Assembly: GCA_945948515.1 (NCBI GenBank)
Contig: CAMFBH010000007.1
Location: 1 to 64,000 of the forward strand
DNA: 64,000 bases
Direction: 5' to 3'
DNA from: an uncultured Clostridia bacterium
Lineage (GTDB): Bacteria > Bacillota > Clostridia > Oscillospirales > Acutalibacteraceae
This document shows positions 18,246 through 52,350 of this stretch, piece by piece. The position numbers and the translations under genes are program-made. The number at the start of each line of letters is the position of its first letter. Positions within the stretch are counted from its first letter, which is position 1. The notes under the pieces are model-generated. The model saw only the letters and a list, made by a program, of their open reading frames with translations. It did no database searches and was not told the DNA's origin.

Positions 18246-18461
18246 TTAGATATTATCAACAAGTTTCTTAAGCTCTTTGATTTCTTCTGCGGTAAAGGTT
18301 AAGCCTTTGCTCATTTTAGAATGATCGGGAGACCAATCTCTTACATCGATTTTGGGCTCTCTGCCATTCCATGAAATCATATTAACCTCTCTTGTCCATC
18401 CTCGTGCGGTTTCGGAAATAACTCCGAGATGTTCAGTTATTTCATATTTGATTTCCGGCAT
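18246..18461 (-). CDS. YdbC/PC4-like single-strand nucleic acid binding protein
   Basis: 71 residues, starting MPEIKYEITEHLGVIS and containing WTREVNMISWNGREPKIDVRDW, the pattern of the bacterial YdbC family that folds like the eukaryotic coactivator PC4 and binds single-stranded DNA. Cytoplasmic, probably a dimer. It has its own AGGAGG ribosome site and follows ackA by 20 bases. Its cellular role in Clostridia is not known, and its pairing with acetate kinase may only be convenience. Confidence 0.85.
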   Translation of the reverse strand: MPEIKYEITEHLGVISETARGWTREVNMISWNGREPKIDVRDWSPDHSKMSKGLTFTAEEIKELKKLVDNI

Positions 18462-37616: not shown

Positions 37617-37822
37617 GATGTTTCAACTCCGATAACTCTGATTTTGTTTTCGGTCAGAATTTCAACCGCTTTTTCTGAATTGGTTACGATAACATATCCG
37701 CAGCCATCGCCTTTTTTGGGATTTTCAAGCCTCGAAACAGTGCTCTTAATCCCCTTTTTTCTCAGTACATCCTGCCCTCTCTGAGCGGCAGTGACCGAGC
37801 CGACTTTAATTCTTATATACAT
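37613..37822 (-). CDS. DUF3343 small putative sulfur/selenium carrier
   Basis: 69 residues, IKVGSVTAAQRGQDVLRKKG start and a GDGCGYVIV segment with the single cysteine at residue 41. DUF3343 proteins are predicted partners of class V desulfurases; the cysteine in the glycine-rich turn would accept persulfide. The 4-base overlap with the desulfurase supports a two-protein relay. What receives the sulfur next is not visible. Confidence 0.8.
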   Translation of the reverse strand: MYIRIKVGSVTAAQRGQDVLRKKGIKSTVSRLENPKKGDGCGYVIVTNSEKAVEILTENKIRVIGVETS

Positions 37823-37864
37823 AAAACATACCTCTCAACATTTAATAATACATTCTATGCCAAA

Positions 37865-37904
37865 ATAAAAAAATGCGCTCACATAAATCCTATGCAAGCA
37901 CATT
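37865..37904 (-). terminator. Terminator of the mannosidase-fucosidase unit
   Basis: Fourteen-base stem (37872-37885 with 37891-37904, three wobbles), then seven T on the minus strand, 12 bases after the fucosidase stop. Confidence 0.8.
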
Positions 37905-42548: not shown

Positions 42549-44012
42549 TTAAAGCAATTTTTCAAAGCCCTCGGTGGAATAGGGCTCATTGTTTCTTTTT
42601 TTAGCAAGCGCCGCATTAAGAGCGCTTACGCGTTTTCTGGTTACAGGATATATTATGAGCATTAAAAGTGAAAGTCCGATTAAAATTGCGGGAATAATTG
42701 TTGATATATTCTCCATTCCGTTTATAATCTTTTCATCGCTTATTCTTTCTATCAGGCTTTCATTTCCGGCAATATCATTATCGGCATTATATCCATAAGC
42801 GCTGAGTAAAACTCCCTGTGCAAGAATGCCGAAAGCCGAACCGAATTTTTGAACGAGCTGCGGAAAAGCAGTTATTATTGACTCTCTTCTCTTACCGGAT
42901 TTAAACTCATCAAGTTCAACCAAATCATAGCACATTGAATAAAATAAGGTCCAGAAAGTGCCTGCACCGACTCCGAGAATAAACGGTGCGGCGATTGCCA
43001 TAACCTTAAAATCTCCGATTGCAAAATCAAGCCCTAAAGCCTTACAGATAATTTCTCCCGCGATAGTAAATGTGAAGAAAATAATGCAGCATGTTCTTCT
43101 GTCTGTTTTTTCTGCAAGCTTTGTTACAAGCGGAACGGTTATTGCCATTGCAACAACAAGCGTTACAATTACCATTGCTATACCGGTATCATAATCCATC
43201 GCGATGCAATCAACAACCATATAGGTTAAATTTGACTGAATCATTGACGAGCCTGCAAGGAAAAAGAAAACGAAAAGAATAAACATAAAGAACGGCTTAA
43301 GCTTCAATATTTCTCCGAATGAAGTTACCGTTTCTTTTAGAGCAACACCTTTGTTTACCTTTATTTCGCCTTTCTTTTCGGCTTTTGCAAGATATATACT
43401 CTTTAACGAAACAACACAAATCAAGCCAAAAGCCACGGCAAGAATTGAAATAATTCCGGAAATAGCGCAATATGCCATGGACATTCCTATAACATTTCCA
43501 ACAACAGTTGCAAGAGTGGGAAGAATATTTCCCGCTCCGACACCGCCTGCGTTGATTAATGAAGAAGTTGAACGAATCTCGGTTCTTTCATCATAATCCT
43601 CTGTTATTTCGGCAACAACAGCATAATAAGGAATTGTGTAGAATGTATAGAAAACCCATACAATCATTGTTAAAACAGTATATAGAATCATTTTAGGCAA
43701 GTCGCCGTTAAGCCCTACTCCGAGCGGAGACCAAGCAATAATATATGAAATTCCGAGCGGCAGAAGTGCCTTTGCCATAACCTTTCTTTTATCAACGCCC
43801 TGCCTGTCGGTATAATTGCCGATAAGGGGGTCGGTTATTGCATCCCAAGCAATAGAAATGAAAATTACAATTCCGGCAACAGCAGGCTTGATATGAATTA
43901 CTTGTACAAGGAAGGTCAGATAATATGTATAGAACATATTGTAAATTAAAGATTCGGTTAATATTCCGCCTGCATATCCGATTTTTTTCTTCTTTGAAAG
44001 AGAGCTTTTCAT
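42549..44012 (-). CDS. Sugar-cation symporter of the GPH (MelB-like) family
   Basis: 487 residues with about twelve membrane helices. KIGYAGGILTESLIYNMFYTY opens like GPH family transporters, and AWDAITDPLIGNYTDR is the family signature in the second loop. Moves glycosides with Na+ or H+. Here it is first in a transcript with GH38 and GH29, so it probably imports mannose- or fucose-containing oligosaccharides. GGAGATG upstream; promoter at 44055-44083. Confidence 0.9.
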   Translation of the reverse strand: MKSSLSKKKKIGYAGGILTESLIYNMFYTYYLTFLVQVIHIKPAVAGIVIFISIAWDAITDPLIGNYTDRQGVDKRKVMAKALLPLGISYIIAWSPLGVGLNGDLPKMILYTVLTMIVWVFYTFYTIPYYAVVAEITEDYDERTEIRSTSSLINAGGVGAGNILPTLATVVGNVIGMSMAYCAISGIISILAVAFGLICVVSLKSIYLAKAEKKGEIKVNKGVALKETVTSFGEILKLKPFFMFILFVFFFLAGSSMIQSNLTYMVVDCIAMDYDTGIAMVIVTLVVAMAITVPLVTKLAEKTDRRTCCIIFFTFTIAGEIICKALGLDFAIGDFKVMAIAAPFILGVGAGTFWTLFYSMCYDLVELDEFKSGKRRESIITAFPQLVQKFGSAFGILAQGVLLSAYGYNADNDIAGNESLIERISDEKIINGMENISTIIPAILIGLSLLMLIIYPVTRKRVSALNAALAKKRNNEPYSTEGFEKLL

Positions 44013-44054: not shown

Positions 44055-44083
44055 ATTATAATACTCTGAAAATTCAAAATCAA
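44055..44083 (-). promoter_or_regulatory. Promoter of the glycan locus
   Basis: -35 TTGATT (44078-44083), 17-base spacer, -10 TATAAT (44055-44060), minus strand, just past the terminator of the upstream RNA. Confidence 0.65.
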
Positions 44084-44088
44084 GTCAG

Positions 44089-44117
44089 AAAAAAAGAAGC
44101 TGCCTTGCGGCAGCTTC
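44089..44117 (-). terminator. Terminator of the candidate ncRNA
   Basis: Perfect 9-base stem GAAGCTGCC/GGCAGCTTC with a GCAA tetraloop, then seven T. Among the strongest terminators in the window. Confidence 0.92.
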
Positions 44118-44568
44118 CCATTCTATGTAAAAGCCAGAGTTCAAAAACAAATTAATTCTTTTAAAGAAAAATATATTTTAGAACCAAGCAGAATAACAGC
44201 CGGCAGGTTTTTTATTAACACTACCGATTTGCTGAAATCCGTCTTTTACACCATGCCCTCTTTGAGCAGACACTAAAAGCGCTCGTGTTTTGATCAGTTT
44301 AGCGCTGATAGCTGAGGACACTGAATTTCAGTCAATGCATGCTATCGGAATAAAAAGTTGATTAATGAAGCAACGGTAAAGAATTCGTTTCGGCGAACGC
44401 CTGACCTCCCCATTCGGCAAAATATATTTACTGTTGAAACAATAATGCTTTTTACACTTCAAGACATACCATCCTGAGCGAGTGGACAATCACAGCTATG
44501 CACGCTCCAAAAGGACGCGTTTTCCCTACATATACTGCTTAGGCAGGCGCTCAATCCCACCGCCACTT
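44089..44568 (-). ncRNA. Candidate structured non-coding RNA, about 480 nt, family unknown
   Basis: The stretch has no credible open frame in either direction. A strong promoter ends at 44575 and a strong terminator ends at 44089, giving a transcript of about 480 nt from near 44568. Self-complementary parts include outer helix CAAG (44566-44569 with 44460-44463), GAGCG (44548-44552 with 44476-44480), hairpin CTGC-CTAA-GCAG (44535-44546), hairpin ACGCGTCC-TTTT-GGAGCGT (44502-44520, one bulged base), helix GATAGC (44341-44346 with 44307-44312) enclosing hairpin ACTGA-AAT-TCAGT (44320-44332). It lacks the RNase P core AGGAAAGTCC, the SRP GGAAGGAAGC loop, and a tmRNA TTCGA T-loop with CCA end. 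Its size and independent expression suggest a large ornate RNA; the family is not identified. Confidence 0.75.
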
Positions 44569-44574
44569 GACTAT

Positions 44575-44603
44575 ATTTTACAGTAACTAATATTAAATGT
44601 CAA
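44575..44603 (-). promoter_or_regulatory. Promoter of the candidate ncRNA
   Basis: -35 TTGACA (44598-44603), 17-base spacer, -10 TAAAAT (44575-44580), minus strand. A near-perfect housekeeping promoter that is not followed by any ribosome site or start codon. Confidence 0.8.
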
Positions 44604-44705: not shown

Positions 44706-44745
44706 TAAAAAGAAAAAGCAACACAGAACACTACTGCGTTGCTTT
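44706..44745 (-). terminator. Terminator of groESL
   Basis: Twelve-base stem AAAGCAACGCAG/CTGTGTTGCTTT (one wobble), then TTCTTTTT on the minus strand, 16 bases after the groEL stop. It isolates groESL from the ncRNA promoter. Confidence 0.85.
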
Positions 44746-44761
44746 TTTGAAAACCTAATTA

Positions 44762-46698
<1,937 letters not shown>

Positions 46699-46732
46699 AA
46701 TAATCACCTCTGAATTATTTTCAATCATACAA

Positions 46733-46759
46733 TTAGCACTCTCTTGACCTGAGTGCTAA
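46733..46759. promoter_or_regulatory. CIRCE element (HrcA operator)
   Basis: Perfect TTAGCACTC-N9-GAGTGCTAA, the consensus of the HrcA operator, placed at the expected transcript start of groESL. Confidence 0.97.
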
Positions 46760-46764
46760 TATAT

Positions 46765-46792
46765 ATTTTAGCAAGTTTTTTCCAATTGTCAA
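46765..46792 (-). promoter_or_regulatory. groESL promoter
   Basis: -35 TTGACA (46787-46792), 16-base spacer, -10 TAAAAT (46765-46770), minus strand, immediately upstream of CIRCE. Confidence 0.8.
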
Positions 46793-46871
46793 TAGTATTT
46801 AACAAAAAATCCCTTAAATACAGATATTTTAAAAAATTATTCATAAAAAGGCTATAATTCCATGTGCAATT

Positions 46872-46901
46872 CAAAAAAATTCGGCAGCCGAGCCGCCGAA
46901 T
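46872..46901 (-). terminator. Terminator of the spoIIA operon
   Basis: Ten-base stem ATTCGGCGGC/GCTGCCGAAT (one wobble) with a TCG loop and seven T on the minus strand, touching the sigF stop codon. Confidence 0.9.
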
Positions 46902-47551
46902 CATTCAAGCTTTTTTCGTAGTTTTGTTAATATTGCCTTTTCCTTTCTTGAAATTTGAACCTGTGACACTCCGAGCAGCTTTGCAACATCACTCTGTGTT
47001 GCACCTTGAAAATATCTTTTTTCAACTATTATTTTCTCATCACTGCTAAGCTGACTTAACGCGCTGCTAAGAATTATTCTATCAAACATTTTTTCACTTT
47101 CGTCAACAGGAATATCAAAATCTCCGTTTTCTTCATCTGCGCTTAATGACAGCGCCGGATTTATTACATTTAATATTTCAGCCGTTTCTCCCAAATCGCA
47201 TCCAAGCATCTCCGACAGTTCGCTCACGGTTGGTTCTCTCAGCTCTTGCTTTATAAATTTTTCGGAAAGAGCCTTTGCTTTTAAGGATTTTTCTTTCAAA
47301 GAGCGTGATACTTTAACAGTTCCGCCGTCTCTGAAAATTCTTTTTATTTCTCCGAGAATAACAGGAACGGCATAGGTGGAAAACGCAAAGCCTCTTGATT
47401 CATCAAAGTTATCAACCGCTTTGATTAGCCCAACACATCCCGCCTGATATAAATCATCATACTCCGCTCCCCTGTTTCTGAATCTGTTTGCAAGAGAATG
47501 AACGAGACCGAGATTGTCTTCAATCATTTTATTTCTCTTTTCACTTACCAC
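46901..47551 (-). CDS. sigF: Forespore sigma factor SigF (SpoIIAC)
   Basis: 216 residues. Region 2 with LGLVHSLANRFRNRGAEYDD and LYQAGCVGLIKAVDNFDES, region 3, and region 4 helix-turn-helix TQSDVAKLLGVSQVQISRKE. It directs the first forespore-specific transcription. Third gene of spoIIA and overlapping spoIIAB by 7 bases, the arrangement of all spore-formers. Confidence 0.95.
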   Translation of the reverse strand: MVSEKRNKMIEDNLGLVHSLANRFRNRGAEYDDLYQAGCVGLIKAVDNFDESRGFAFSTYAVPVILGEIKRIFRDGGTVKVSRSLKEKSLKAKALSEKFIKQELREPTVSELSEMLGCDLGETAEILNVINPALSLSADEENGDFDIPVDESEKMFDRIILSSALSQLSSDEKIIVEKRYFQGATQSDVAKLLGVSQVQISRKEKAILTKLRKKLE

Positions 47552-47982
47552 TTGGCTTTTCCTTCAATCTTTTTAATAAGCGTTACGGTTGTACCCGAGC
47601 CAAGCTTTGATTTTACGCTGACTTTAGTGCAAAACGATTCCATAACGGTAAAGCCCAGACCGGCTCTGTCGGCACCTCCCGTTGTATAAAGAGGAGTCAT
47701 CGCTTTTTCCAAATCATCTATTCCGCATCCTTTATCGCGTATTTTTACTCGCACCGTATTGTTTTCGCATATTTGAGTTGTTATGTAGATTTTTCCGCAG
47801 GAATCGGAATAGGCGTGAACTATGCAGTTTGTTACCGCCTCACTGACGGCAGTTCTCAAATCCGACAGCTCCTCAACCGTAGGATCAAGAACAGATGCAA
47901 ATGCACAAACGGCAACTCTTGCAAAGCTTTCGTTAACACTCTTACTGTCAATAGTTAATTTCATTTCATTTAATATTTTCAT
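47545..47982 (-). CDS. spoIIAB: Anti-sigma F factor SpoIIAB
   Basis: 145 residues. GHKL ATPase: LRTAVSEAVTNCIVHAYS (N box), IRDKGCGIDDLEKAM (G1 box), and TTGGADRAGLGFTVM (G2). Binds SigF and phosphorylates SpoIIAA on serine. Overlaps spoIIAA by 17 bases. Confidence 0.96.
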   Translation of the reverse strand: MKILNEMKLTIDSKSVNESFARVAVCAFASVLDPTVEELSDLRTAVSEAVTNCIVHAYSDSCGKIYITTQICENNTVRVKIRDKGCGIDDLEKAMTPLYTTGGADRAGLGFTVMESFCTKVSVKSKLGSGTTVTLIKKIEGKAKW

Positions 47983-48295
47983 CGTTCTTCTCCTTTATGG
48001 TTGCAATAGAGCCAAGCCCTGCCAGTTCCATTATTTTTTTTGTCTGCTTTGTAACATTTTTAATTTCAAGCGTTCCCCCGTAGCTTTGCATTAATCTATA
48101 CCTGCCCATAACAAGACCTATGCCGCTCGAATCCATAAATGTTACATTTTTAAAATCAAGCACCAGGTGCTTTGGCTGCTTAAAGCTTATTGCATCGTCT
48201 ATTTTGTCTCTAACCACAGCGCTTGAATGGTGGTCTATTTCTCCTATAAGATATGCCGCAAGATAATCCTTACAGCTTTCAACTGTTACATTCAT
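47966..48295 (-). CDS. spoIIAA: Anti-anti-sigma F factor SpoIIAA
   Basis: 109 residues, STAS fold. The phosphorylated serine lies in FMDSSGIGLVMGRY near 56-57. When dephosphorylated by SpoIIE it frees SigF from SpoIIAB. AGGAAG precedes the ATG. A terminator-like hairpin stands only about 13 bases upstream, so the operon promoter must lie within or before it. Confidence 0.96.
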   Translation of the reverse strand: MNVTVESCKDYLAAYLIGEIDHHSSAVVRDKIDDAISFKQPKHLVLDFKNVTFMDSSGIGLVMGRYRLMQSYGGTLEIKNVTKQTKKIMELAGLGSIATIKEKNDENIK

Positions 48296-52122: not shown

Positions 52123-52350
52123 AAAATAAAAAAGCCTTCGCCTCAATGAGACGAAAGCTGAATTTCGCGGTACCACTCAAATTGCACAATTGTGCCACTC
52201 AAATCTTTAACGCAGATATACGGGATAGGCTACTTGATTTCACACATCCGGCTCCTAAGCTACCTTCTTTTGCTTGCTCTGCCGGCTTTCACCAAACGCC
52301 GACTCTCTGAAAGATTGGGCAAAATACTCCTCTTATTCACAGCCTTTTTG
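52123..52350 (-). promoter_or_regulatory. T-box leader of valS, specifier GUA (Val)
   Basis: On the minus strand the T-box core GAGTGGTACCGCG is at 52166-52178 and a terminator hairpin plus T run at 52123-52160. Upstream the stem I parts are readable: GAGAGTCGG, GGTGAAAGCCGG, and GAAGGTAGCTTAGGAGCC, where GTA at 52261-52263 stands in the specifier position and is a valine codon. Uncharged tRNA-Val would pair with GTA and the T-box and favour readthrough into valS-folC. Confidence 0.93.

Follow-up and report, generated by a model that had tools for sequence, protein, structure and literature searches.

In a gut-type clostridial bacterium, the chaperone operon groESL and a locus for sugar breakdown are separated by a gene-free unit flanked by transcription signals, which raises the question of whether this DNA encodes an RNA of its own, serves a neighbouring gene or is a remnant. 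All positions refer to the window, that is, the whole 64-kb stretch of DNA that was analysed. On the minus strand the order is groESL, its terminator, a promoter, the gene-free unit, a terminator with a GCAA loop, a promoter-like site and a sugar transporter gene, which starts at 44012, 3' of the unit, and is followed by a family-38 alpha-mannosidase gene and then an alpha-L-fucosidase-like gene. The unit occurs as a single copy in its genome. Its extent and boundaries are as follows.

44714 to 44746, minus strand: terminator of groESL, the upstream boundary of the unit (from the sequence and the terminator scan)
44575 to 44603, minus strand: sigma-70-type promoter TTGACA-17-TAAAAT (11 of 12 consensus matches)
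44089 to 44568, minus strand: predicted noncoding transcript of about 475–480 nt including the T run (no ORF of at least 60 aa, no period-3 signal, GC contrast)
44089 to 44119, minus strand: intrinsic terminator with a GCAA loop and seven T (hairpin 44119-44094; T run 44095-44089)
44055 to 44083, minus strand: promoter-like site TTGATT-17-TATAAT of the downstream transporter gene (10 of 12 consensus matches)

The two ends were described beforehand as a near-perfect promoter and a 9-bp GCAA-loop terminator with seven T, and both descriptions are accurate. The promoter consists of TTGACA (44603-44598), a spacer of 17 and TAAAAT (44580-44575), and the terminator stem has nine perfect pairs, GAAGCTGCC-GCAA-GGCAGCTTC, lengthened by flanking G-T pairs. 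The terminator hairpin has a folding energy of -18.7 kcal/mol and a pairing probability of >0.99 within the fold of the whole RNA. When the 64-kb window was scanned for promoters with at most one mismatch in total, 11 sites were found, and nine of the ten others directly precede an ORF read in the same direction. The window also contains 16 terminators that combine a T tract with a stem of seven or more pairs, whereas a shuffled window has 0–1. Because such promoter and terminator sites exceed chance here, both ends of the unit are likely to be true signals in this genome. The unit is also cut off from groESL, as had been proposed, by the intervening groEL terminator at 44746-44714.

The unit was further said to be free of open frames, and this holds in that there is no ORF of at least 60 aa within it and no period-3 signal. 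On the minus strand no frame exceeds 53 codons, the next two having 47 and 35, and their ribosome sites are weak or absent. Neither NCBIfam nor PHROGs has a match to the short frames, and translation of the unit in six frames with stops masked gave nothing above chance in Pfam or PHROGs. The period-3 signal is 0.39, compared with a mean of 0.98 in shuffles and, in 54 equally long coding segments, a median of 7.1 and a minimum of 2.13. This test rules out a coding gene or recent pseudogene, and the unit has no protein-family match either. In base composition, the unit is a GC island amid AT-rich spacers: its GC content is 0.41, and 0.46 in the first 200 nt (the 5' domain described below), whereas the neighbouring spacers have 0.22 and 0.26.

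A unit with its own promoter and terminator and no coding is what generally defines a standalone noncoding RNA, and assignment of this locus to that class is, judged from its sequence, well supported. The reading that we favour, with a probability of roughly 0.68, is a standalone gene for a noncoding RNA of about 475 nt, lineage-restricted as far as searched, which would act in trans. The signals at both ends and the lack of coding are present in the DNA, and from there we infer the transcript, its fold and any activity. The main sigma factor would transcribe the RNA gene from the promoter at 44603-44575, and the terminator at 44119-44089 would end the transcript. Its predicted fold comprises a closed 5' domain of 200 nt, two small hairpins and a 3' domain with two arms. 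The RNA may act as a folded protein-binding scaffold or as a base-pairing regulator, rather than as an mRNA or a switch of a neighbouring gene. The predicted elements are as follows.

44368 to 44568, minus strand: predicted 5' domain, closed by helices 44568-44558/44378-44368 and 44553-44544/44403-44394 (11 and 10 pairs; mean pair probabilities 0.90 and 0.94)
44307 to 44346, minus strand: predicted hairpin GAUAGC...GCUAUC, enclosing the ACTGA-AAT-TCAGT helix (outer probability 0.99, inner 0.62)
44278 to 44306, minus strand: predicted hairpin AGCGCU...AGCGCU with self-complementary arms (probability 0.83)
44125 to 44251, minus strand: predicted two-armed 3' domain (closing helix probability 0.75, inner helices up to 1.00)

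Both short hairpins named in the preliminary description, CTGC-CTAA-GCAG and ACTGA-AAT-TCAGT, are present, but the predicted fold swaps the former for a longer-range helix. Relative to shuffles, the folding energy has a z-score of -3.1 with the terminator and of -2.0 to -2.6 without it, and the sense strand folds better than the antisense strand (z -1.0). For comparison, 43 segments of the window, most of them coding, served as controls: their mean z-score is -1.0, and five of the 43 are at -2.4 or lower. One small coding gene in the window has -2.99. Hence, folding energy alone cannot set the unit apart from ordinary sequence, and the z-score was dropped as proof of structure. Self-complementary six-base loop words were also considered as possible dimer contacts and rejected, given that 480 bases should contain several of them by chance.

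Homologues were sought by several routes. BLASTN against genomes of the family (398, in 135 genera) and of the class (371), samples that include no other genome of the same genus, returned short matches only and no homologue; most of the short matches fall on an AT-rich stretch near RNA positions 400–440. Covariance models were built from the single sequence for the 5' domain (R1) and the 3' domain (R2). R1 matched nothing in the family sample, and with laxer filters nothing credible in the 30 nearest genomes (best E 0.58), where R2 gave one marginal match (E 0.072) and nothing credible. Seven exact pieces of 18–19 bases searched against viral contigs gave two single matches, chance-like upon realignment; the plasmid search gave no match to the unit and the phage search one chance-like match of 35 bases. 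The position beside groEL is not kept in the nearest genera by GroEL (88–90% identity), in which other genes occupy the place and no similar sequence was seen. With no homologue found there is no covariation for the predicted fold; the genome is isolated, and missing homologues reveal little about the age of the RNA. The proposal of a conserved structured RNA thus finds no backing from BLASTN or the covariance models in these genomes, and the term 'large structured RNA' has partial support: the standalone noncoding unit is retained, whereas the fold has an unexceptional energy and no homologue was found.

Comparison with known RNA families likewise gave no match. All 4227 Rfam models, with E up to 10, yielded scattered low scores on the segment, several of them on terminator hairpins, and nothing at the gathering level; this agrees with the earlier assignment to no known family. 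RNase P RNA and tmRNA had been excluded beforehand for want of their hallmark segments, correctly, given that the genome's own copies lie elsewhere with strong scores (C2:23970-24301 and C27:3396-3747, respectively). In the same all-Rfam scan, OLE, GOLLD and ROOL (RF03087) were not among the segment matches at E up to 10. No ROOL was found in the genome either, an absence that is weak genome-wide given that 14 control genomes were equally silent. The raiA motif (RF03072), a standalone structured RNA of Firmicutes of about 205 nt, was not found in the genome at E up to 1 or on the segment at E up to 10; the unit would be of the same general kind but longer.

In kind, the unit resembles OLE, ROOL and GOLLD: it is also hundreds of nucleotides long, apparently standalone, noncoding and gene-free, in a Firmicute-type genome. 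However, it matches none of their Rfam models and is known from a single copy, whereas membership of those families runs from hundreds to thousands, with conserved contacts (PMC12286853). GOLLD and ROOL are typically at home in phages and prophages (PMC12286853), and unlike them the unit shows no phage link in the searches made. Published screens pick long intergenic regions that are richer in GC than other spacers and next seek similar sequences in other genomes (PMC11109978, PMC8723152). The unit would be selected by the first rule, but similar sequences as sought in the second stage were not found for it. That it represents a new family of large folded RNA, OLE/ROOL-like in kind and confined to one poorly sampled clostridial genus, is a tentative suggestion that we consider doubtful. 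Should it prove to be transcribed and folded, the unit would add to the large bacterial RNAs that have no known family, in this case from a gut-type lineage that is poorly sampled; at present it is a single sequence whose gene signals are good but which lacks comparative support.

Three other explanations were weighed against a standalone RNA gene. We consider it unlikely that the unit is a long 5' leader, an attenuator or riboswitch whose conditional terminator governs the sugar transporter and alpha-mannosidase genes. Leaders often end in intrinsic terminators before a gene, and attenuators are built that way, so the argument of the preliminary description that terminators exclude a riboswitch of the neighbouring gene is in itself unsound. 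The unit terminator does lie on the strand of the transporter gene, about 80–82 bases 5' of its start codon, and the downstream genes are catabolic. The low probability of a leader comes from other evidence. A separate promoter-like site lies between the terminator and the transporter; in the modelled fold the terminator, at -18.7 kcal/mol, faces a strongest competing pairing of about -10.5, and no good antiterminator was found, although one stabilised by a ligand or a protein may exist; no riboswitch or leader family scored above cut-off; and 480 nt is long for such an RNA. Terminator-type leaders, including riboswitches and the T-box, likewise combine a long upstream RNA with an intrinsic terminator before a gene, and the unit differs from them by its second promoter-like site past the terminator, by the antiterminator not found and by the lack of a family match. 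A T-box leader is found elsewhere in the window, at 52144-52349.

It is quite unlikely that the unit is what remains, decayed and functionless, of a gene or mobile element that by chance has a promoter on one side and a terminator on the other. Its GC content is close to the window average of 0.394, no homologue was found and its folding energy is unexceptional, all of which would fit such a remnant, but period-3 signal and protein-family traces in the six stop-masked frames are both lacking, and promoter and terminator are both intact. The mRNA of a very small protein, such as the 53-codon frame at 44489-44328 with a weak purine stretch before an inner TTG, is highly improbable, given that chance alone would give about two open runs of that length per 480 bases over six frames (our own estimate), the start is a TTG with a poor ribosome site, and neither a family or phage match nor a period-3 signal was seen.

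Several other features of the window were observed in passing. Within 44762-48295, the groESL operon lies immediately 3' of spoIIAA-spoIIAB-sigF-like genes (named by similarity); in one related genus, spoIIA-like genes are near groES, and groEL beside spoIIA genes was not seen in the stretches examined of the nearest named relatives by FolC (identity <=54%). A gap of about 250 bases (37617-37872), which separates the fucosidase terminator from the gene that comes next, has no Rfam match. On the minus strand at 1398-1510, just 3' of a tRNA-Leu gene (1618-1697), is a derivative that has in common with tRNA-Leu the first seven bases, GCGGGTA, and the 24-base 3' end CAAGTCCTGTTACCCGCACCAAAA, with a differing body; it has its own terminator (1419-1398) and folds 3.95 sd below shuffles. 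Neither ARAGORN nor Rfam calls it a tRNA, and it could be a tRNA-like RNA, a pseudo-tRNA or an integration footprint. Finally, a small minus-strand gene of about 71 codons (MPEIKYEITEHLG...) at 18246-18461, overlooked at a 100-codon cut-off, ends at a terminator (18231-18208), and its product presumably resembles PC4/YdbC-type proteins.
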